DNA from: an uncultured Endomicrobiia bacterium
GTDB lineage: Bacteria > Elusimicrobiota > Endomicrobiia > DTEH01
NCBI GenBank assembly: GCA_937928765.1
Contig: CALFVX010000002.1
Coordinates: 1 to 54,263, forward strand
Direction: 5' to 3'
DNA: 54,263 nucleotides
Numbering within the stretch: position 1 is the first letter of the stretch; each line of letters opens with the position of its first letter. Made by a program: the position numbers and the translations under genes. This document shows, piece by piece, positions 17,959 to 27,687 of this stretch. Below the pieces are notes generated by a model. It did no database searches. It worked only from the letters and a program-made list of their open reading frames with translations, and was not told the DNA's origin.

Positions 17959-18912
17959 ATGAAAAAAAGTATTTTAATAATAGCATTGTTTTTTATTTTT
18001 TCTTGTAGCAAAAAAGATAGACTACAGATTAATACTTTAGAGCTGTTTATTACACCATCTTCTGTTTCAGTACAAGTTGGTGGAACAGTAGAATTAAGCT
18101 GTATTGGTAAATCTGCAAAATCTGATGATGTTGATATAAATCCGATATGGACAGTTGAACCGGAAACATTAGGAACATTTTCACCTACAAGAGGAAAAAA
18201 AGTTACCTTCACAGCTTCTAGCCAACCAGCAACAGGAAAAATAAAAGCTACCGAAGGTGATGTTTATAAAGAAGTAAGCCTAACAGTAGTTCAAACTACA
18301 CAAACTACAGGCGGTGGAAGTGGTGGTGGAGGCGCTGGAAGTGGTGGTGGAGGTGGTGGAAGTGGTAGCAGTGGAAATGTTAAAATAGTTTTTTATGATG
18401 ATAATGGATTAAATAGTAGTTTTGGTATACCTGATATTTTTACTTGGCCTTCTGGCGGATTAAACTCTTCTGAGATAACCGGCGGTGGTTGTTCTTTAGA
18501 TCCACAAAAATATCAAAAATTTGAGTTTTCTGGTTCAGGTTCAAATTTGTACTTTGGTGGAGGTATAGTTCTTAATAAAGTATCTGTTTCTCCAAATTCA
18601 GTGGATCTATCTCAATATTACTCATCTACAGCTAAATTAAAGTTTTGTATAAAATTAAGCAGAAGCTTAACTGTCAATGAAAAAATAAAAGTTGAAATTG
18701 AACATACGCAACAAGTCACAAAATCAACTTTATATTTATTATCATCTTATGGATTTGATTCTACATCTACAGATTGGCAAACCATCTCCATACCTTTATC
18801 TAATTTTTCTTCTGTAGATTATACAAAAATTTTGTTACCTTTTGAGATCACAGCAGAAAGTTTAGGCAGTCCTTTGACATTTTATTGGGACTATGTACGA
18901 TGGGAAGAATAA
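17959..18912 (+). CDS. lipoprotein: Big-like domain, glycine linker, CBM-like domain
   Basis: A 317-residue lipoprotein with lipobox FIFSC (Cys16). A bacterial Ig-like domain (about 28-112) begins LELFITPSSVSVQVGGTVEL. A glycine/serine linker of about 27 residues follows. The C-terminal carbohydrate-binding-like domain (about 142-317) starts VKIVFYDDNGLNSSFG and ends FYWDYVRWEE. The latter resembles the N-terminal domain of the protein at 24431. AAAGGAGG is the ribosome site. The end overlaps the next gene by 13 bases. Confidence 0.68.
   Translation: MKKSILIIALFFIFSCSKKDRLQINTLELFITPSSVSVQVGGTVELSCIGKSAKSDDVDINPIWTVEPETLGTFSPTRGKKVTFTASSQPATGKIKATEGDVYKEVSLTVVQTTQTTGGGSGGGGAGSGGGGGGSGSSGNVKIVFYDDNGLNSSFGIPDIFTWPSGGLNSSEITGGGCSLDPQKYQKFEFSGSGSNLYFGGGIVLNKVSVSPNSVDLSQYYSSTAKLKFCIKLSRSLTVNEKIKVEIEHTQQVTKSTLYLLSSYGFDSTSTDWQTISIPLSNFSSVDYTKILLPFEITAESLGSPLTFYWDYVRWEE
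18310..18377 (+). repeat. GGT/GGA-rich low-complexity run coding a Gly-Ser linker
   Basis: A glycine/serine codon run built from repeated GGTGGTGGA-like units. It is the only strongly G-rich coding stretch in this AT-rich window. It separates the Ig-like and glycan-binding-like domains of the lipoprotein and could change length by slippage. Confidence 0.7.
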
Positions 18913-20264
18913 AAAATAAAATTTTTTTATTAATTTTAGTTTTTTTTTCTTGTTTAAAAATTTTTCCTTCTACAAAAATTGAGTGTCGTGGAAGAAAAAT
19001 TTATTTAAATAGCGAGATTTTTGTAGTTCGTGGCGTGTGTTATTCTCCAATACCTGTGGGTAAAAATCCTTCCAACTACAGATGGTGGGATGAAAAAAAT
19101 TTTCTTTTAGATATACCGAAGATAAAACAACTTGGTGCAAATGTTATAAGAACATATTCTGCACCACAAAGTTACAATGCTAATTTTGCTGAGTTTTTAG
19201 ATGAATGCTATAAAAATGGTATATATGTTATAGTTGGCTATTGGGTAAATTATGGACAAAATTTTGCTGATCCAGATGTAAGATCTCGTCATAAGCAGAA
19301 TTTTTTAAATATGGTTAATTTGTGGAAAAATTATCCTGCAGTAATAATCTGGTGTTTTGGAAACGAAGTATATCCAGGCGGTGGATCAAGTTGGAAGGAC
19401 TGGTATAGTTTAATTAAAGAAGTATCTCAAGAAGTTAAAAATATTGATAGTGCTCATCTTTTGATGAATGTTGTAACCACAGATCATTTTTATAGTACAG
19501 TTGGTGAGATATCATATGGAAGTGATGATGAGAATTTGTCTTTGCTTGACTTATGGGGTATAAACGCGTATTTGGGTTATGATTTTAAAAATTTATTTTT
19601 TGATTACAAAAATAAAACTTCAAAACCTTTAATTATTACAGAATTTGGTTGTGACAGTTGGAATAAAATATACAATAAAGAAGATGAATTTATGCAAGCA
19701 AATTATATTGTTTCACAATGGAGAGATATTCAACGAAATCTTATTTTAAACAATGGTGTTGCAAGTGGTGGTTGTATTTTTGAATGGACAGATGAATGGT
19801 GGAAAAGTTTCTCAAACTCTTCAGATTATAAACAGGATACTTCCACTGATTGGACAAATTTTAACTATGAAGATCCTAATATGAACGAAGAATGGTTTGG
19901 GATAATGAAAATTTCTTCTAACAGCTACACCAGCTACATCACAACAGCGAAAAGATCTTATTACGAAATACAAAAATTATGGAAAAAATATGTTTTTATA
20001 GAAGAAAAAAAAGTTTACGCATATCCTAATCCTGCTTTAAATTGTGAGTTTGTAAGATTTAGATTACCCTATGATGCTAAAGAGATTAACATTTACACCA
20101 TATCAGCAGAACTTGTAAAAACCATTAAAGTTAACAATATTTTTGACACAAGATGGTATATGGATAATAATAATTATGAAGAAATTTCTTGTGGAGTTTA
20201 TATTTTTACAGTAAAAACAAAAAATTCCAATATTTACAAGAACAAAATTGTTGTTATAAAGTAA
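18900..20264 (+). CDS. secreted clan A glycosidase with C-terminal sorting-like domain
   Basis: A 454-residue protein. I chose ATG 18900 because it starts directly before a signal peptide; ATG 18885 would add five residues. Neither has a ribosome site, and both overlap the upstream gene, suggesting coupling. FFSC near residue 18 could be a lipobox. The TIM barrel has RGVCYSPIPVG, acid/base Glu156 (WCFGNEV) and nucleophile Glu248 (ITEFGCD), close to GH2 and GH72-like barrels. Residues about 375-454 form a beta-sandwich tail with YAYPNPALN, INIYTISAELVKTI and SCGVYIFTVKT, matching type A T9SS/FlgD-like C-terminal domains. Confidence 0.72.
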   Translation: MGRIKNKIFLLILVFFSCLKIFPSTKIECRGRKIYLNSEIFVVRGVCYSPIPVGKNPSNYRWWDEKNFLLDIPKIKQLGANVIRTYSAPQSYNANFAEFLDECYKNGIYVIVGYWVNYGQNFADPDVRSRHKQNFLNMVNLWKNYPAVIIWCFGNEVYPGGGSSWKDWYSLIKEVSQEVKNIDSAHLLMNVVTTDHFYSTVGEISYGSDDENLSLLDLWGINAYLGYDFKNLFFDYKNKTSKPLIITEFGCDSWNKIYNKEDEFMQANYIVSQWRDIQRNLILNNGVASGGCIFEWTDEWWKSFSNSSDYKQDTSTDWTNFNYEDPNMNEEWFGIMKISSNSYTSYITTAKRSYYEIQKLWKKYVFIEEKKVYAYPNPALNCEFVRFRLPYDAKEINIYTISAELVKTIKVNNIFDTRWYMDNNNYEEISCGVYIFTVKTKNSNIYKNKIVVIK

Positions 20265-20278
20265 AATTTTTGTAATAC

Positions 20279-20314
20279 TTGACAAATAATTATTTTTTAA
20301 GTATTATTTGTTAA
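20279..20314 (+). promoter_or_regulatory. strong sigma-70 promoter inside an inverted repeat
   Basis: TTGACA (20279-20284), 17-base spacer, TATTAT (20302-20307): nearly consensus. The arms ACAAATAAT (20282-20290) and ATTATTTGT (20303-20311) form a perfect 9-base inverted repeat that lies over both hexamers and extends to TT/AA with one mismatch. It may be a repressor operator. As RNA, it could also form the terminator-like end of the upstream unit. It should drive 20437 and 21234. Confidence 0.65.
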
Positions 20315-20354
20315 ACAAAAACTTTACAATTTTTTAGATTAAATTATTTTACCA

Positions 20355-20439
20355 AAAAGGGGGTGAGAAAAATAAATTCAAAAAAATTTAAAATCATAAT
20401 GAAAAAAAATAAATTAAGAGGAGGGAAAATAAAACTATG
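20355..20439 (+). promoter_or_regulatory. leader with extra ribosome-site-like motif
   Basis: AAAAGGGGGTGAG (20355-20367) resembles a full anti-16S complement but lies 70 bases ahead of the true start, which has its own AGGAGGG (20419-20425). The frame that follows the motif stays open for 25 codons, is lysine-rich, and ends in a TGA overlapping the ATG of the lipoprotein gene. The same design recurs before 22913. No ATG is properly spaced from the motif, so translation is uncertain. Confidence 0.3.
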
Positions 20440-21198
20440 AATAAAATAAAAGGTTTGTTAGGTATTGTTTTATTAGGTATATTTTTATATGGTTGTGCTA
20501 CAGCACCTTTAGCAGAAGAAGATGAAATGGTACCTAAAAAAACAGCAGTATCAAAAAATATAGAAGAAGAAAAATCGACAACTTTCCAAACAGAGCAACC
20601 TTCAGCTAAATCTTTAACAACACCAGCACCTATTATTCCTCCTCAGGCAGAAGAAACCGGTGCACTTATAGGTTATAAAGTTCAACTTCCTTTCTGGGTT
20701 TACAAAGATAGAATTTCAAGAGAAAACCATTTTATACCTTCAGGTTGGATGGGTGATTATGGCGATTTAAAAATTAACGAAAACTGGAAAGAAAATCCCA
20801 AAGATGGACAAAGCTGTATAAGGTTAGAATATTCAGCTAAACGCTCTCAAGGACAAGGCTGGGCAGGAATTTATTGGCAAAATCCTGCAAACAACTGGGG
20901 AACAATAAAAGGCGGATTTGATCTACGTGGTGCTACAAAACTTACTTTTTATGCAAGAGGAGAAAAAGGTGGTGAAATTTGTGAATTTAAAATGGGTGGT
21001 ATAAGAGGAGAATACAGTGATTCTGATACTTCCACAACAGGTCCTGTGCAACTAACAAAAGGATGGAAAAAATATACTATTGATTTAAAAGGTTTAGACT
21101 TATCATATATTTCAGGCGGTTTTTGTTGGGTATTAACTGCTAATGACAATCCTGATGGTTGTGTAATTTATTTAGATGAAATAGTCTACGAGAAATAA
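20437..21198 (+). CDS. lipoprotein with carbohydrate-binding-like domain
   Basis: A 253-residue lipoprotein (lipobox LYGC, Cys20). A Pro/Thr/Glu-rich spacer (about 21-80) could cross the periplasm or outer layer. The C-terminal domain (about 85-253) includes WAGIYWQNPANNWG, FDLRGATKLTFYARGEKGG, GWKKYTIDLKGLDLSYISGG and VIYLDEIVYEK. This domain is clearly duplicated in the next gene, 21234. The fold looks like a jelly-roll glycan-binding module; the ligand is unknown. It has a strong promoter of its own at 20279. Confidence 0.7.
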   Translation: MNKIKGLLGIVLLGIFLYGCATAPLAEEDEMVPKKTAVSKNIEEEKSTTFQTEQPSAKSLTTPAPIIPPQAEETGALIGYKVQLPFWVYKDRISRENHFIPSGWMGDYGDLKINENWKENPKDGQSCIRLEYSAKRSQGQGWAGIYWQNPANNWGTIKGGFDLRGATKLTFYARGEKGGEICEFKMGGIRGEYSDSDTSTTGPVQLTKGWKKYTIDLKGLDLSYISGGFCWVLTANDNPDGCVIYLDEIVYEK

Positions 21199-21233
21199 AA
21201 ATAAAATTATTTTAAAAACAATAATAGGTTTAT

Positions 21234-22610
21234 ATGTGTAAAAAAATTATACTACTTTTATGCTTATTATATATAAATATTTCGTTATCAGTTTTTGCTG
21301 AAAAATTTTATGTATTCTCTGCTTCACCTAAAGAAAAAAATTTTTATTCACCTACAGGATATATGGGCGATGTTTCTGATATCAATCTTTCTGCAAGTAA
21401 TGAAGTTTTAACTTTGGATAATTATCCATCTTTAAAATTAAGATATAAACCAAAAGGAATACAGAAGTGGATTGGTATATATTTTCAGAATCCGCCTACA
21501 AATTGGGGGCAATATCAAGGCGGCTACGATCTCAGCGGTGCTGAGAGAATTATTTTTTATGCAAGAGGAGAAAGTGGTGCTGAAATAATAACATCAGTTG
21601 GAATTGGTGGTATAAAAGGTAAATATCCTGACTCTGATATTTATCAAACAGGACCTATAAAACTTACAAAAGAATGGAAAAAATATACATTTGATATTTA
21701 TGGCTTAGATTTGAGTTATATCTCTGGAGGATTTTTTTTTATAATAGAAACTAAAGATAACCCTTTAGGATGTATAATATATTTTGGTGATATATACTAT
21801 GAAGGCAAAAGTATAAAAGCTGCAAGAATGTTTGATGATAAAAATCCTCCTGAAATAATTTTGTCGATAAAGCAAAAACAAATAGATATAGAATATGAAC
21901 AAGATGGGATTCCTAAAGAAACAAAAATAGAATTTCAAGTTCTATGTAAAGATGATAAAAATCTTGAAAGATGGAGTTTAGAAATTTTTTCTCCACAACA
22001 AAATTTAGTTAAAAAATTTTCTGGTAGTGGTGAGGTTAATAAAACATTTTTATGGGACGGCTTAGATGATATATATTCAAAAATTGTTCCAGAAGGAAGA
22101 TATAAAGTTGTCTTAACAGCAACAGATTCTTCAGGCAATTCTTCATCAAAAGAAGATTTTTTAAATGTTGTTCATAAAAAGCCTGAACCACAAAAGATTG
22201 TTGAAATTAAAGAAATAATAAAAGAAATTCCTAAGGAAGTAAAGATTGTAGAAGAAGAAAAATTATTAAGAGTGCAACTACAGTCAAGTTTGTTGTTCGA
22301 AACAGGTAAGTTTGAACTTTTAGCTCAAAGTAGAAATGTCCTTTTAAATGTATTAGAACTTTTAAAACAATATCCTCAAAACAAAATCGTAGTTGAAGGA
22401 CATACAGATTCTGTAGGTTCTGATGAGTATAATATGAAATTATCACAGAACCGTGCTGATGCAGTAAAAAAATTTCTTGTAGAAAATGGCATTGAAGAAA
22501 CACGTATTGAAACAAAAGCATACGGAAAAACAAAACCTGTTGCTTCTAACAAAACATCCTCAGGAAGAGCACTCAATCGCAGAGTTGAAATTTTGATAAT
22601 AAAGAATTAA
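21234..22610 (+). CDS. secreted protein: CBM-like, FlgD Ig-like and OmpA domains
   Basis: A 458-residue exported protein with three parts. A signal peptide ends about residue 22 (VFA-EK). Residues about 25-188 repeat the domain of the 20437 lipoprotein (YFQNPPTNWG, YDLSGAERIIFYARGE, LSYISGGFFF). Residues about 210-315 form a FlgD-like Ig domain (FLWDGLDDIYSKIVPEGRYK). The C-terminal 120 residues are an OmpA peptidoglycan-binding domain: LLFETGKFELL, VEGHTDSVGSDEYNMKLSQN-RA and SGRALNRRVEI. It would tie a glycan-binding or structural module to the cell wall. The gap to 20437 is 35 bases. Confidence 0.8.
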   Translation: MCKKIILLLCLLYINISLSVFAEKFYVFSASPKEKNFYSPTGYMGDVSDINLSASNEVLTLDNYPSLKLRYKPKGIQKWIGIYFQNPPTNWGQYQGGYDLSGAERIIFYARGESGAEIITSVGIGGIKGKYPDSDIYQTGPIKLTKEWKKYTFDIYGLDLSYISGGFFFIIETKDNPLGCIIYFGDIYYEGKSIKAARMFDDKNPPEIILSIKQKQIDIEYEQDGIPKETKIEFQVLCKDDKNLERWSLEIFSPQQNLVKKFSGSGEVNKTFLWDGLDDIYSKIVPEGRYKVVLTATDSSGNSSSKEDFLNVVHKKPEPQKIVEIKEIIKEIPKEVKIVEEEKLLRVQLQSSLLFETGKFELLAQSRNVLLNVLELLKQYPQNKIVVEGHTDSVGSDEYNMKLSQNRADAVKKFLVENGIEETRIETKAYGKTKPVASNKTSSGRALNRRVEILIIKN

Positions 22611-22627
22611 AAATATATTTTTTAATT

Positions 22628-22667
22628 TTCACATAATTTTTACATAATCTTCACATAATTTTTACAT
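22628..22667 (+). promoter_or_regulatory. four TTYACA repeats at 11-bp spacing (PhoP/PhoB-box-like)
   Basis: TTCACA, TTTACA, TTCACA and TTTACA begin at 22628, 22639, 22650 and 22661, one per helical turn. The larger unit TTCACATAATTTTTACAT is an exact 18-base direct repeat with a 22-base period. Direct repeats of TT(A/C/T)ACA with 5-base gaps are the known binding site of Bacillus PhoP, and 11-base repeats are general for OmpR/PhoB-type regulators. The last unit doubles as the -35 of the promoter listed next. Confidence 0.6.
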
Positions 22668-22689
22668 TTATATTTATATTTTTTATTTA
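22661..22689 (+). promoter_or_regulatory. promoter for riboswitch-controlled gene
   Basis: TTTACA (22661-22666) is followed after 17 bases by TATTTA (22684-22689). Transcription would start near 22696, about 23 bases before the riboswitch aptamer. The weak -10 and overlap with the four TTYACA repeats suggest a promoter that needs an activator. A second possible -10, TATATT, lies at 22696-22701. Confidence 0.5.
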
Positions 22690-22718
22690 CTTAATTATAT
22701 TTTAATCTTTTATGAGAA

Positions 22719-22818
22719 AAGCAACTTATGGGGAAACCCATAGGACGCAAAACTACGGGTCTAAATACTGTATTATTGTTTAATTTTTAGATACAGTATA
22801 TGATAGCCGGGTTGCCTC
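22719..22818 (+). ncRNA. cyclic di-GMP-I (GEMM) riboswitch aptamer
   Basis: All class I core parts are visible. P1 is GCAAC (22721-22725) with GTTGC (22811-22815). P1b TATGGG/CCCATA (22727-22742) is closed by a GAAA tetraloop. The joining strand has GGACGCAAA (22743-22751), then ACTACGGGTCTAA. P2 is TACTGTAT (22766-22773) with ATACAGTA (22791-22798). The 3' side has GATAGCCGGGTTGCC (22802-22816). The GACGCAAA, CTAA and GCCGGGTTGCC segments match the Vc2-type consensus closely. AAAAGGGGGTGAT follows at once and may belong to the expression platform; no terminator is seen there. Confidence 0.93.
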
Positions 22819-22916
22819 AAAAGGGGGTGATAGTTAAGATTAAAAAAGTGAAAAAGATGATATACAAATACAAAATAAAAAAATTTAAAAATAAAGGAGG
22901 AATAAAAAAAAGATGA
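22819..22916 (+). promoter_or_regulatory. leader between riboswitch and gene, second ribosome-site-like motif
   Basis: AAAAGGGGGTGAT (22819-22831) abuts the aptamer. The following frame is open, lysine-rich, includes GTG 22848 and ATG 22857, and closes with a TGA overlapping the ATG of the next gene (22913). The true gene has its own AAAGGAGGAA site at about 22892-22901. The same arrangement occurs before 20437. It could be a coupled leader peptide, a ribosome standby site, or part of the riboswitch output. Confidence 0.35.
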
Positions 22917-23605
22917 AAAAAATAGGCAAAATAATTTTTATAAGTATAATTCTTTCATTAGTTATAGGCATAGGATTTGTTTCAGCACAGCAGTTTCAAT
23001 CTATTAGAATTTCTACAATCACAGCACAAGCAAATGTTACTGGTGGACAACTTGCAATGTTTGTAGAAATAAGAAGGAGGGATAATAATAATACTGCAAG
23101 CAATATTTCTTGGACGGTTCCTGCTGGTAGTGGTTGGACTTTGGCTGACCAGTATATACTTTTACATTCTACCCTTACACAATCAGGTGGAATAAGGATA
23201 TATACTGATAATAATGCAGCTGATGCTAACCCTAGATATGGAGGGAGTTTTGGTGAGAACAACGGTGCAGGCTTAATATCTACATCTTCAAACACTGCTT
23301 TTTTACCTATGGCATGGTTGATACAAGACAATGTTTCAAACCCACAAACTGGTGATCCTCAAACAAGTTATTCTTGGTTTTATTTTAAAGATAGAAGTCA
23401 GACTAACTTCTGGAGTAATGCAGACACCAGAGATTATTCTACAGTAGCAAGAGCAGGATATGGATATCATTTTGCGCAAGGTCCAGATAATTATGGTGCT
23501 ATGCCATCTCCTAATCCAATATATATAGAGGCAAACTTTGTTAATGCTGTAGGTGGTTGGACATACAGAACTACTACTTTAAGAATTGAGTTGTTTTCAC
23601 AATAA
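22913..23605 (+). CDS. secreted protein, possible surface-fibre subunit, unknown family
   Basis: A 230-residue exported protein with a signal peptide ending VSAQ-QF. The mature start QQFQSIRISTITAQA resembles that of the protein at 25579. The region GGIRIYTDNNAADANPRYGG, LPMAWLIQD, WFYFKDRSQTNFW and the end AVGGWTYRTTTLRIELF aligns by eye with the C-terminal half of the protein at 24431. No known domain is recognised. It is preceded by the PhoP-like repeats and c-di-GMP riboswitch and followed by a strong hairpin, so it is the first and probably most abundant product of this unit. A structural or adhesive surface role is inference. Confidence 0.65.
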   Translation: MKKIGKIIFISIILSLVIGIGFVSAQQFQSIRISTITAQANVTGGQLAMFVEIRRRDNNNTASNISWTVPAGSGWTLADQYILLHSTLTQSGGIRIYTDNNAADANPRYGGSFGENNGAGLISTSSNTAFLPMAWLIQDNVSNPQTGDPQTSYSWFYFKDRSQTNFWSNADTRDYSTVARAGYGYHFAQGPDNYGAMPSPNPIYIEANFVNAVGGWTYRTTTLRIELFSQ

Positions 23606-23622
23606 TAGTTGACAATTTTATA

Positions 23623-23665
23623 ATAGGATGGGAGGATTTGTTTGTTCTCCCATCCTATATTTTTA
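23623..23665 (+). terminator. rho-independent terminator or attenuating hairpin
   Basis: A perfect 12-base stem: ATAGGATGGGAG (23623-23634) pairs with CTCCCATCCTAT (23647-23658) around a 12-base loop. ATTTTTAATTT follows. It is the strongest hairpin seen in the window. It lies 17 bases after the 22913 gene and only 11 bases before the ATG of 23670, so the next four genes would be expressed by partial read-through or from a promoter not recognised here. Confidence 0.88.
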
Positions 23666-23669
23666 ATTT

Positions 23670-24449
23670 ATGTTATTTAATTTTTTTAAAAAAAATTTTT
23701 TTTCTTTATATTTAGTTTTTTTTTTCATAATTAGCAATGTTTATTCAATAAGTGTCTCGCCACAAAGATACGAACTTTTTTTATCTGAAGGTGAAGAGAA
23801 AGAGATAAGGTTTCTTGTAGTAAACGACAGAGATTTTGAACAAGAGATTATGATTTCTTCAACTCCTTGGCATATACTTGAAGAAAACAAAAATATAAAT
23901 ACAGAAGAGTGGTTTTCTTATAAACCACAAAAACTTTTTCTTAAACCTAAAGAAGAGGCAATTGTAATATGTAGTATAAAATGTCCAAAACAAGCAGTTG
24001 GATTTTTAAACAATATGCTCTCTTTTACTGAAGGACAAAAATACGCTGGAATTATAAGTTTAATAATAACAGTTCCTGTTTATGTTATTATAAAAGATAA
24101 ATCAAATTTTGATATAGAAATAAGTTCTTTAATTTTTAGAACAAACCCTGTATCAAAAAAAAATGAAATTTTAGTTGGTATAGAAAATAAAGGTAATGTT
24201 TATATTCGTCCTAAAGGTAAGGTTGAAATTTATAAAACTAAAAAGTTAGTGTATTCATACACATTTGGTGAGATGTATCCTATATTTGTTAAAGAAAAAG
24301 GATATTTGTTTTTACCTTATGAAGAAAAAAATATTTTAAAAGATGGGAAATACAAGGTTTGTTTAGAATTAAACCTGTGGGACAGCTTAAATATTAAAAA
24401 AGAAAAAGATTTTGTTATAAAGAATAACTTATGGATATTAAAAAATTAA
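23670..24449 (+). CDS. periplasmic Ig-like protein, fimbrial-chaperone-like
   Basis: A 259-residue exported protein; signal peptide to about residue 25 (NVYS-IS). The mature start ISVSPQRYELFLSEGEEKEI and the strand-rich pattern with LFLKPKEEAIVICSIKCP recall the two-Ig-domain periplasmic chaperones of archaic pilus systems. It lacks a match I could defend residue by residue to the PapD active site. An alternative is a membrane-associated Ig-like surface protein. No ribosome site is visible. The end overlaps the next gene by 19 bases. Confidence 0.5.
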   Translation: MLFNFFKKNFFSLYLVFFFIISNVYSISVSPQRYELFLSEGEEKEIRFLVVNDRDFEQEIMISSTPWHILEENKNINTEEWFSYKPQKLFLKPKEEAIVICSIKCPKQAVGFLNNMLSFTEGQKYAGIISLIITVPVYVIIKDKSNFDIEISSLIFRTNPVSKKNEILVGIENKGNVYIRPKGKVEIYKTKKLVYSYTFGEMYPIFVKEKGYLFLPYEEKNILKDGKYKVCLELNLWDSLNIKKEKDFVIKNNLWILKN

Positions 24450-25582
24450 AATTTATAATTTTTTTGCTTTTATGTTTTTCTTTAAACTTTTTGTATAGCA
24501 AAATACTTACAATTTATTCTGACGAAGGGATACCTCAGGGAAGTAATCTTTATACATGGTCTGCTGGAGGATTAGGACAATTTAATTCAAAAAATAGTGA
24601 TTTGTTGCAGGTTCCAGTGGGAACTGAATCTTTTAAAACGGTAAGCAATCCATGGTGGAATCCAGGTGGGTGGTGGGAAAACTGGGCTGGCTGGGGTGTA
24701 GTTTATAATAATGAACAAAATTTATCTTTTTATAATAATGGTAGATTAAGATTCTGGATTTATGCTTCTGTAGGTAATATAAGAATAGAAATTGAAGCAC
24801 CAACAGGTAATAAAAACCAAGCAAAATATTTAACAGATCTTGGTTGGAGTAGTTCTGATATTAACAAATGGAAATTTTTTGATGTTCCTCTTTCAAGTTT
24901 CAACATAGAAACTTATACCGCAGTGAAATGTCCTTTTATGATAACTGCAGCTTTAGGTAATTCAACAAATTCTACAACATTCTATGTAGATTTTGTTAGA
25001 TGGGTGTCATCTGATGTTTCCTCTCCTTATTTTAATATAAAAATTAAAGATATAGAAACACACATTCAAAAATCTTCAATAACATTTAATGTGAATTTAC
25101 AACAAGTGTCAAGTTGGACTGTTGCAAATGAATATATAGAAATAGATTTTGATCCTAACAATATCTCTTGGGGAATACAGATTTATACTGATAACAAAGC
25201 ACAAGGTGCTAATCCTGTATATACAGGAAATAAAAATCCTTGTGGTCTTGTGGATACTACAACCACAACAAGAGTTTTGCCAATGGGGTGGACTATTGAG
25301 TCTTCTACAAGAACAAAACAACAGTTAGGAAAAGGTACTCCAGAAAGTTGGGTTTATGGTGGTTTTATGTGGAAATGGATGAAGGATAAGAATACTCAAG
25401 GATTTCAGAATGGTGAAAATTATATAACTTTATGGAATAACAGAGGTGTTTTATGGAATGCTTCTGACCGTGATTGGAAAAATTCGCCTAATTATATTTA
25501 TCTTTCAGCAGATTTTTCTATAGCTGTAGGTGGAAGAACTTATAGAACAAACCAACTTAAAATAGAGTTGTACTATAAATGA
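24431..25582 (+). CDS. secreted protein: CBM-like domain plus subunit-like domain
   Basis: A 383-residue exported protein; the signal peptide ends about residue 22 (LYS-KI). The N-terminal domain (about 24-193: LTIYSDEGIPQGSNLYTWSA to FYVDFVRWVSSD) resembles the glycan-binding-like domain of the lipoprotein at 17959. The C-terminal domain (about 200-383) resembles the whole mature protein at 22913: GIQIYTDNKAQGANPVYTGN, LPMGWTIE, AVGGRTYRTNQLKIELYYK. A binding head joined to a subunit-like domain would fit a tip or capping adhesin; this is inference. It overlaps the next gene by four bases. Confidence 0.62.
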   Translation: MDIKKLKFIIFLLLCFSLNFLYSKILTIYSDEGIPQGSNLYTWSAGGLGQFNSKNSDLLQVPVGTESFKTVSNPWWNPGGWWENWAGWGVVYNNEQNLSFYNNGRLRFWIYASVGNIRIEIEAPTGNKNQAKYLTDLGWSSSDINKWKFFDVPLSSFNIETYTAVKCPFMITAALGNSTNSTTFYVDFVRWVSSDVSSPYFNIKIKDIETHIQKSSITFNVNLQQVSSWTVANEYIEIDFDPNNISWGIQIYTDNKAQGANPVYTGNKNPCGLVDTTTTTRVLPMGWTIESSTRTKQQLGKGTPESWVYGGFMWKWMKDKNTQGFQNGENYITLWNNRGVLWNASDRDWKNSPNYIYLSADFSIAVGGRTYRTNQLKIELYYK

Positions 25583-26724
25583 AAAACAAAATTTTTAGTT
25601 TAACTTTTTTAATTTTTTTGTTTTATATTTTATTTATTTCCGATTTGTTATATTCACAGAATTTTCAAAGTATTTCAATTTCTACAGTTGTAGCAGAGGC
25701 GTATGTTTCAGACGATATTTTGCCACCAAAAATTATACATAACCCAATAAAAAATATTTCTCCTTTAACAAAAATAGCTGTTATTTATGGAACAGCAGAA
25801 GATGAAAAATCTCTTAAAAAAGTTGAAATTCATTATAAAAATTCAACTGAGGCATCATATTTAACACATACTTTTGTATATTTAGATACTAAATCTACTA
25901 CATTTTACTTTGAAATACCAAAAGATTTTATTAAAGAAGATATACAATATAGAATCTTAGCATATGATGAGATAAATTCAACTTATACAATATGGTATGA
26001 TGTAAGTTTTAAAGATTCAATATCTAATAAGATAGATTCTCAAGGAGGTAAAATTGTACTAGAAGATGGCAACCCATTTGATGCTGAAACATTTATATTT
26101 ATTCCACAAGGTGCTTTAGATAAAGAGGTTGAAATATCTATAAAAGAAGTTGCAAATACTTTGGTTCCTAAAAAAAATAAAAGACCAGCATTAAGTGAAT
26201 ATCCTTTTAAAGTTTACAAGTTTGAACCTTCAGGTTTGAGATTTAAAAAACCAGTACAAATTGGACTTTTATATACAGATTTAAACAATGATGGTAAAGT
26301 TGATGCTACAGAGTTTGATGAAAATGTCCTAAGCATATTTTGGTATGATGGTGTAAACTGGAGAAATTTAAAATCTTCAGTTGATAAAGATAAGAATTTA
26401 GTTTTATGTTGGGTGAACCATTTTACATATTTTGGTATTTTTCCTTTAGGTAGTTTAACAAAAGATGATTACAGACCTAAAGAAAAAATAATTACACCTA
26501 ATAATGATGGAGTAAATGATTTCGCTACATTTGATAATATACCACAAGGAACAGAGATAAAAATATACAATCTTCGTGGTAAATTGGTAAGAAAAATTGA
26601 TTCTATTCCTTATGAGTGGGATGGTAAAGATTATGAAGCTAAAGATTTGGAAGTTGGTCCTTACATATACCAATTTAAAATAGATGAAGAGTTAATAATC
26701 GGGGTAATAATAATAGCAAGGTAG
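25579..26724 (+). CDS. secreted multi-domain protein with CHU_C-like C-terminus
   Basis: A 381-residue exported protein. After the signal peptide the mature start QNFQSISISTVVAEA resembles 22913. An Ig-like stretch (about 45-150) precedes a ZU5-like segment GGKIVLEDGNPFDAETFIF (about 155-290). That contains a calcium-loop-like D-L-N-N-D-G-K-V-D at residue 232. The last 80 residues begin IITPNNDGVNDFATFDN and run to IKIYNLRGKLVRKI, YEWDGKDYEAKDL and YIYQFKI, typical of CHU_C/gliding-associated (T9SS type B or FlgD-like) domains. It may be an anchored or secreted surface component. Confidence 0.68.
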   Translation: MKNKIFSLTFLIFLFYILFISDLLYSQNFQSISISTVVAEAYVSDDILPPKIIHNPIKNISPLTKIAVIYGTAEDEKSLKKVEIHYKNSTEASYLTHTFVYLDTKSTTFYFEIPKDFIKEDIQYRILAYDEINSTYTIWYDVSFKDSISNKIDSQGGKIVLEDGNPFDAETFIFIPQGALDKEVEISIKEVANTLVPKKNKRPALSEYPFKVYKFEPSGLRFKKPVQIGLLYTDLNNDGKVDATEFDENVLSIFWYDGVNWRNLKSSVDKDKNLVLCWVNHFTYFGIFPLGSLTKDDYRPKEKIITPNNDGVNDFATFDNIPQGTEIKIYNLRGKLVRKIDSIPYEWDGKDYEAKDLEVGPYIYQFKIDEELIIGVIIIAR

Positions 26725-26730
26725 TAAAAT

Positions 26731-27687
26731 ATGAAAAAAATATTAGTTTCAACATTTTTAGTTTTAATAATTAGTTATAAAATGTTTTCAGCATTTTATT
26801 ATATACCTGAATTTGGAGAAGTATATGGTAGTGGCGGATGCGGTGCTGTAAATTATGGTAATGTTGAAAGTATATTTTACAATCCTGCTGGTTTAGCCGG
26901 GATGACAAAGTATAAAGAACTTGTGTCTTCGTTTAATAAACATCTATATATAGAAGGTGTAGATATAAATATTTATAATTTAGGATACGCAATGCCTGTG
27001 AAGTTTGGTTTAGTTAAAACCAAGAAGGTTGATAATAAATATAAAAGGTATATTATTCCTTTAAAGTTTACATTGGGGTTAGGAATTTATGGTATGGATG
27101 TTAACTCTGGTTTGTATAAAGAAAATATTTATTTATTTTCAATTGCAAGTAAAATAGATTTTAGAAATAAAAAAAGTAAAAATAGTATTTTATATGGTGC
27201 AAGTTTAAAAATTTTATCTTTAGGTTATGCTAAAGACGAGTATACAATAACAGACACTGTCTTTTCTAGTGGTTATAATAAAACTGCGTTTACTTTAGAT
27301 ATAGGTATGATTTATTTGATAAAACAAAGTTTGTTTTTTGGTTTGAATTTTGCAAACATTTTGCCAGCAGATGTTGGACTAAAAGATAAAGAGGAAATAA
27401 AACCAGCAATAAATTTTGGTTTGGGATATAAATTTTTTATGTCAGAAATATTGACTGAGGTGAGGTTTAGAGATAAAGTTGAAGATTATATAATAGGATA
27501 CAGACACTCATTTTTTAATAATAAATTAAGATTTTCAATTGGGACAAACACTACAACAGGAAATTTTTCTTTACGTTATAGGTTTAAATTAAACAGTGTT
27601 ATTTTAGAACCTGTATATAGTTTTTCTTACCCATACAATATGCAAACTTACGGTTCTCATAATATAACTTTAAAATTTAAATTTTAA
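26731..27687 (+). CDS. PorV/UPF0164-like outer-membrane protein
   Basis: A 318-residue exported barrel protein. The signal peptide ends near residue 20. The mature N-terminus has GSGGCGAVNYGNVESIFYNP followed by AGLAG, the conserved opening of UPF0164/PorV-PorQ-like proteins (alternating glycine, N-P-A-G-L). The rest has alternating beta strands and the chain ends KFKF with phenylalanine. PorV is a carrier in type IX secretion; members also occur in organisms lacking it. It ends the unit that carries the CHU_C protein, six bases upstream. Confidence 0.75.
   Translation: MKKILVSTFLVLIISYKMFSAFYYIPEFGEVYGSGGCGAVNYGNVESIFYNPAGLAGMTKYKELVSSFNKHLYIEGVDINIYNLGYAMPVKFGLVKTKKVDNKYKRYIIPLKFTLGLGIYGMDVNSGLYKENIYLFSIASKIDFRNKKSKNSILYGASLKILSLGYAKDEYTITDTVFSSGYNKTAFTLDIGMIYLIKQSLFFGLNFANILPADVGLKDKEEIKPAINFGLGYKFFMSEILTEVRFRDKVEDYIIGYRHSFFNNKLRFSIGTNTTTGNFSLRYRFKLNSVILEPVYSFSYPYNMQTYGSHNITLKFKF

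Follow-up and report, generated by a model that had tools for sequence, protein, structure and literature searches.

A set of five adjacent genes in an uncultured Endomicrobiia bacterium (phylum Elusimicrobiota, assembly GCA_937928765.1) probably builds a glucan-binding surface structure in little-known bacteria, namely Elusimicrobiota and several candidate phyla. We lean, by a narrow measure, toward an usher-less surface polymer or complex that would be assembled by donor-strand exchange and would be the diderm counterpart of the Gram-positive WxL/Csc clusters. The window analyzed here is the whole 54,263-nucleotide stretch of contig CALFVX010000002.1, from a genome of 1.54 Mb (completeness 96.5%). 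Positions 22628-27687 of its + strand form one unit made of TTYACA repeats, a GEMM-I riboswitch, a candidate leader open reading frame (ORF) and five genes that we call A (starting at 22913), B (23670), C (24431), D (25579) and E (26731). All five encode secreted or outer-membrane proteins, and a hairpin interrupts the operon 3' of A. A model working from the letters and ORF list alone (hereafter the sequence-only reading) had described this linked unit as a candidate c-di-GMP-controlled surface structure of unknown type; the linkage it observed is right in every part, and its five ORFs are all present in the ORF listing.

The sequence-only reading expected these genes to travel together, and they do: the families recur in 44 loci by profile annotation of the fetched loci. 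All five are present in 15 of these and four or more in 29; many of the others are cut by contig ends, and near-duplicates (L054-L056, L044/L045) are included. The order is A-B-C-D-E or one of the variants A-C-B-D-E and E-A-B-D-C. The set is present in Elusimicrobiota and, going by record titles, in metagenome-assembled genomes of Omnitrophota, Goldiibacteriota, Firestonebacteria, Clostridia and Caldiserica. Searched by itself, A has matches in 28 of the 199 genomes that sample the phylum. A single-protein scan of GTDB genome contigs with C returned no match; a scan with a 10-row alignment gave matches.

This linkage bears on one alternative, an ordinary polysaccharide-utilization surface complex with carbohydrate-binding module (CBM) lipoproteins, in which the neighboring genes would be functionally unrelated. 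GH5 and GH2-type enzymes, a sugar-binding protein and CBM-like proteins do lie upstream of the unit, as such a complex would have, but the genes recur together in L052, L061 and L065 with no such enzymes or CBM lipoproteins annotated nearby. Already largely refuted by the linkage, this explanation strikes us as very improbable.

Subunit domain and shared N-terminal extension

Gene A (22913-23605, +) encodes a predicted secreted subunit with a signal peptide, an N-terminal extension and an all-beta domain of about 180 aa. The tip-like protein C (24431-25582, +) combines a CBM30-like head (~24500-25006) with an A-type domain (25013-25579) and has no N-terminal extension. The C terminus of C is homologous to A (E=1.6e-19, 40% identity), so the two form one family, as had been read from the letters, and did not turn out to fold differently. 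Searches of Pfam, NCBIfam and PDB sequences found zero relatives of the A domain. We rejected the possibility that it represents WxL in divergent form (hhalign probability of 0.1% when compared with four WxL domains); likewise, PF13731 had 0 matches in 40 members, so that neither the small nor the large protein of the unit carries the WxL domain of WxL/Csc systems. The structure prediction that the sequence-only reading had called for gave a confident result: the AlphaFold2 model of window A, built from 31 sequences, has a mean predicted local distance difference test score (pLDDT) of 88.8 and a predicted template modeling score (pTM) of 0.84, with an all-beta domain mostly above pLDDT 90. A pilin is an incomplete immunoglobulin (Ig) domain completed by a donor strand; the A model is all-beta with a free extension and gave no significant pilin match. 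None of 60 related genomes has a match to the outer-membrane usher (PF00577), which E. coli, as control, did show; this agrees with the earlier statement that no usher is present. Window A and D have no cysteine after their predicted signal-peptide ends and thus lack the lipobox of Bacteroidetes type V pili (FimA/Mfa1). Comparison of A with viral structures gave no significant match, and phage records gave none.

The head of C, previously described only as glycan-binding-like, is related to CBM30 (PDB 1wmx and 2c24, E=2e-4; Pfam CBM30 at 1.9e-5 in relatives). Relatives of C carry from one to seven such heads ahead of the A-type domain. Together with the GH5 and GH2-type enzymes and the sugar-binding protein upstream, the CBM30-like heads point to a probable attachment to beta-glucans. 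At the other extreme, in minimal C proteins (L080, L084, L085) the signal peptide leads straight into the domain, which stands alone and again has no extension.

The extension itself is a candidate donor strand of about 20 residues (approximately residues 26-46 of A; 22988-23050, +) that starts QQFQSIRISTITAQANVTGG, is common to A and D, and is absent from C. The sequence-only reading had noticed that D has the mature start of A, and the match is confirmed (QQFQSIRISTITAQANV in A versus QNFQSISISTVVAEAYV in D). Across the families, an alternating-hydrophobic motif (approximately Phi-x-A-x-V-x-F) stands at the mature N terminus in 30/42 A and 33/42 D proteins versus 2/45 C proteins. In 28 loci, the extensions of A and D resemble each other more within a locus (mean score 24.8) than between loci (16.4; permutation p=5e-5), while the N-terminal similarity of A and C equals the shuffled-sequence background. 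In the AlphaFold2 model of A, the extension is unstructured (pLDDT 53-61) and lies outside the confident domain. Because the motif is common in A and D and rare in C, and because minimal C proteins are bare domains, domain and strand are separable modules: C has the domain only, A both, and D the strand only. Donor-strand polymers follow a logic in which the tip has a groove only and the rod a groove and a strand. The unit follows this logic, with the addition of a base that has a strand yet no groove.

The same observations can be read another way, with the extension as a docking or sorting peptide that a shared partner, be it B, E or a translocon, recognizes, and with A, C and D reaching the surface separately to form a small complex and no polymer. 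The extension is like a sorting tag in its N-terminal position and in its lack of modeled structure; it is common to A and D, which need not touch, and a model of A with B (described below) showed no complex. However, C goes to the same surface without the extension, the locus-specific matching of A and D is more than a general translocon signal would require, and the alternating hydrophobic pattern fits a strand. We judge a docking peptide unlikely, though it is the alternative that we take most seriously.

A WxLIP-family chaperone-like protein and a predicted type IX anchor

B (23670-24449, +) is a two-Ig-domain protein of the WxLIP (DUF916-DUF3324) family with a fold like that of chaperone-usher chaperones. 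Pfam WxLIP_PGBD (PF06030) is detected in 8 of 16 B members, above the curated cut-off in one (L086), and hhalign aligns the B family with a Paenibacillus WxLIP across both domains (E=1e-12). The B model matches the fold of CfaA (E=7e-11) and of an Enterococcus WxLIP (9i25, E=1e-9), as well as CsuC, FimC and Caf1M, in agreement with the description of B as a chaperone-like Ig protein in the sequence-only reading. B thus represents the WxLIP (DUF916 plus DUF3324) protein of WxL/Csc systems and, by fold, the two-Ig-domain chaperone of chaperone-usher systems, its periplasmic location being predicted. The surface structure remains a candidate, but one part of it is no longer of unknown type: B has known kin, and the gene set parallels the Gram-positive csc/WxL clusters, in which cscA encodes a WxLIP/DUF916-DUF3324 protein, cscB a small WxL protein, cscC a large WxL protein and cscD an LPxTG mini-protein (PMC1534035). 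In WxL systems, AlphaFold2 predicts that a hairpin strand of WxLIP completes the WxL sandwich (PMC10599100). A chaperone-subunit step between B and A or C would be inferred by analogy, from this published WxLIP-WxL prediction and from homology.

The kinship of B also invites a second alternative, a WxL-type complex in which B stays at the surface as a structural partner while A and C bind peptidoglycan or another glycan and nothing polymerizes. B is a WxLIP homolog and WxLIP has been described as a surface protein (PMC10599100); moreover, the pair of a large and a small protein parallels cscB/cscC (PMC1534035). Unlike WxLIP, however, B measures ~235-290 aa and its window copy ends without a C-terminal transmembrane helix, A is not homologous to WxL by the hhalign comparison above, and the strand on the anchor D would be left unexplained. 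We hold such a complex to be quite improbable.

D (25579-26724, +) is the anchor-like protein, with the A-like N-terminal extension, an Ig/ZU5-like middle and a type IX secretion system (T9SS) type B sorting domain (~26485-26682). The CHU_C-like tail recognized in the sequence-only reading is borne out by Pfam (CHU_C, 1.6e-11) and by TIGR04131, which scores above cut-off. The adjoining gene E (26731-27687, +) encodes a PorV or PorP/SprF-like outer-membrane beta-barrel. It had been called PorV-like, a resemblance that is weak for E alone (NF033709, E=2e-4) and holds through its relatives, which reach 7e-16 for PorV and 4e-11 for PorP/SprF. The gene that comes after D is usually E (24 adjacent D-E pairs), and the window has the arrangement of T9SS type B cargo, a sorting domain next to a PorP/PorV-like gene. 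In Bacteroidota, proteins with type B sorting domains are anchored by PorP-like barrels, as in SprB-SprF (PMC9143113). The D-E pair resembles SprB-SprF in having TIGR04131/CHU_C next to a PorV/PorP-like barrel, and differs in that D has an A-like strand and seems to act as a base for other proteins, and in that the SprA of this phylum has diverged and scores under the family cut-off. The SprA-like ORF of this genome (L071:4875-10109) encodes 1744 aa and gives SprA matches at E=4e-10, below that cut-off. A SprA-like homolog is present in 26 of the 28 genomes having A, a co-occurrence that is uninformative because SprA is nearly universal in the phylum (SprA-like matches in 162 of 199 sampled genomes). 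Yet many descriptions restrict the T9SS to Bacteroidota.

Hairpin, riboswitch and upstream elements

The strong hairpin that had been noticed after A (23623-23658, +) has a 15-bp stem and folds at -24.7 kcal/mol (z=-5.1). Hairpins of -18 kcal/mol or lower follow 18 of 29 A genes versus 6 of 75 B, C or D genes (p=6e-6); the hairpin is specific to the position after A, as expected if the subunit must outnumber the other products.

Upstream of A, a riboswitch aptamer of the GEMM-I (c-di-GMP-I) class spans 22710-22819 (+). Its RF01051 score of 62 bits exceeds the gathering score, which is 35, and it has the fold and conserved core of the class. The riboswitch announced by the sequence-only reading is therefore present, while the control by cyclic di-GMP (c-di-GMP) that it attached to it is not assured: the guanine expected at the ligand-selectivity position (Vc2 G20) is replaced by an adenine at 22720, Rfam model position 11. 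All four related riboswitches that were read (L057, L069, L076, L077), including that of the sister species, have guanine there. In Geobacter, an adenine at this position goes with selectivity for cyclic GMP-AMP (cGAMP) (PMC6456294), although the base is a selectivity factor and no hard filter (PMC9262584). Among the six GGDEF proteins of the genome, four were read with the canonical Asp and not the Hypr Ser. The ligand is uncertain because of the adenine on one side and the canonical Asp of these proteins on the other; from the base alone, cGAMP sensing is possible, and the window aptamer resembles the cGAMP-selective GEMM-Ib riboswitches of Geobacter in this respect. A GEMM-I riboswitch also lies 5' of A in the sister genome (L057), in L077 and in L076, and was not found upstream of A in the remaining related loci searched. 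Since only three of the related loci scanned have it, it is not a fixed part of the unit. A second c-di-GMP-I riboswitch (69 bits) occurs in the same genome on contig C1 (L072:6095-14001), 5' of genes for a mini-protein with a T9SS C-terminal domain, a PorV protein with tetratricopeptide repeats (TPRs), a FliG-like protein with TPRs and a long coiled-coil protein; the phylum Elusimicrobiota has been described as lacking flagellar machinery (PMC11257099).

Four TTYACA direct repeats at 22628-22666 (+), with an exact 11-bp periodicity, resemble a PhoB/PhoP-type operator. They had been called PhoP-like: the four exactly spaced repeats are there, and the name expresses a mere resemblance. The exact three-repeat pattern occurs at a single site in the whole genome, this one; elsewhere in the genome, PhoP-like repeats yielded degenerate matches only, no more numerous than in the reversed control. 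Between the riboswitch and A, a short, basic candidate leader ORF of 22 codons with a GTG start (22848-22916, +) has a stop that overlaps the A start codon (ATGA). An analogous leader ORF in the sister genome (L057:12070-12120), whose stop likewise runs into the A start codon, has a strong ribosome-binding site at the riboswitch edge, and translational coupling is possible in both.

Further upstream, positions 17959-22610 of the window encode CBM-like lipoproteins and an OmpA-domain protein, which recur upstream of A in L031, L034, L035 and L049, suggesting a longer conserved locus.

Proposed assembly and relation to known systems

The roles assigned by the sequence-only reading (abundant subunit, chaperone-like protein, tip-like protein, anchor and outer-membrane protein) fit every comparative test run, and it is from the demonstrated linkage, homologies and strand sharing that we infer how A to D would assemble. 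A, B, C and D would be exported by Sec, and B would lend a strand that stabilizes the incomplete domains of A and C in the periplasm. By donor-strand exchange, C or an earlier A subunit would then have its groove filled by the N-terminal extension of the next A, and the last groove would be filled by the extension of D. D would be brought to the surface by the T9SS, with the divergent SprA, where E would hold its type B sorting domain. The resulting chain would begin with C, the CBM30-like tip that binds glucan, continue with A subunits and end in the D-E anchor, with the hairpin keeping A above the downstream products in abundance and the cyclic-dinucleotide riboswitch switching the unit.

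Several observations weigh against this donor-strand assembly. The main gap is the export of A and C across the outer membrane, unexplained since neither has a T9SS domain; one possibility is that they are pulled out attached to D. A complex prediction of B with the A-type domain, proposed as a check by the sequence-only reading, did not give a confident complex: when A and B of L077, natural in-frame neighbors, were read through two stops and modeled by AlphaFold2 as a single chain, both parts folded and their mutual placement was not confident (pTM 0.48). Foldseek with the A model found nothing significant (best E=0.11); the top of this non-significant list is enriched in strand-sharing polymers (TasA, CanA cannulae, FimF, Caf1, PsaA, uromodulin), which is suggestive only. 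In Omnitrophota loci, the A-type domain of C sits N-terminally, and chaperone anchoring of a C-terminal carboxylate therefore cannot be general. In one locus (L053:8719-10401), the A-type domain is naturally fused to the D body and no extension lies between the two. Lastly, the extension could instead owe its spread to a function in sorting or docking, or to duplication of a 5' gene end.

In its subunit logic, the unit works most like a chaperone-usher pilus (FimC, CsuC, CfaA, Caf1M systems), yet it is not one because it has no usher and no pilin match. Shared features are the chaperone fold of B, a tip protein with a head and a subunit domain but no extension, a rod-like subunit with domain and extension, and a hairpin after the gene of the abundant subunit. 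The differences, beyond the missing usher and the lack of significant pilin homology or fold match for A, are an anchor that has a strand and no groove, and T9SS components where a pilus would have its usher. In gene content and in the homology of B, the unit is closest to the csc/WxL clusters. The two have in common the CscA/WxLIP homology, a small domain-only protein, a larger one that combines sugar-binding heads with the domain (usually at the C terminus), an anchoring protein distinct from both and a link to the use of plant polysaccharides. The unit is not a strict member, however, because it has neither a WxL domain nor LPxTG: no WxL similarity is detectable in its A domain, B has no transmembrane helix at its C terminus, and anchoring relies on a T9SS type B sorting domain and an outer-membrane barrel instead of LPxTG and sortase, so that D has a role only analogous to that of the LPxTG-anchored CscD. 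Its hosts, moreover, are diderm, and some have a riboswitch.

A wider and distinctly more tentative proposal is that the unit belongs to an undescribed class of usher-less donor-strand surface polymers that would obey one rule in Gram-negative and Gram-positive bacteria: the adhesin is a groove only, the subunit a groove and a strand, and the anchor a strand and a sorting signal, which is either T9SS type B or LPxTG; the chaperone would be a WxLIP-type protein. The tiny LPxTG protein of csc clusters has only 40-60 mature residues (PMC1534035); by analogy, the donor-strand model predicts that this CscD peptide is a donor strand. The strand rule gave p=0.06, 0.05 and 0.017 in three Enterococcus plasmid clusters, which are not independent and whose proteins are not Pfam WxL; these clusters are compatible with the rule and, as weak evidence, suggestive only. 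The LPXTG mini-proteins of Enterococcus plasmids (L106:7624-7866, L104:6399-6644, L108:7640-7906), apparently without a signal peptide, start with a strand similar to the one at the mature N terminus of the adjoining small surface protein.

The unit connects three systems usually treated apart, namely pilus chaperones, WxL/Csc surface complexes and type IX secretion anchors. If our reading is true, it would represent a second surface structure common to several uncultured phyla. If the general rule also proved true, the tiny CscD proteins would be explained as strand-carrying anchors, and the old question of what purpose these very short LPxTG-anchored proteins serve becomes testable: do they provide the donor strand of the small subunit?

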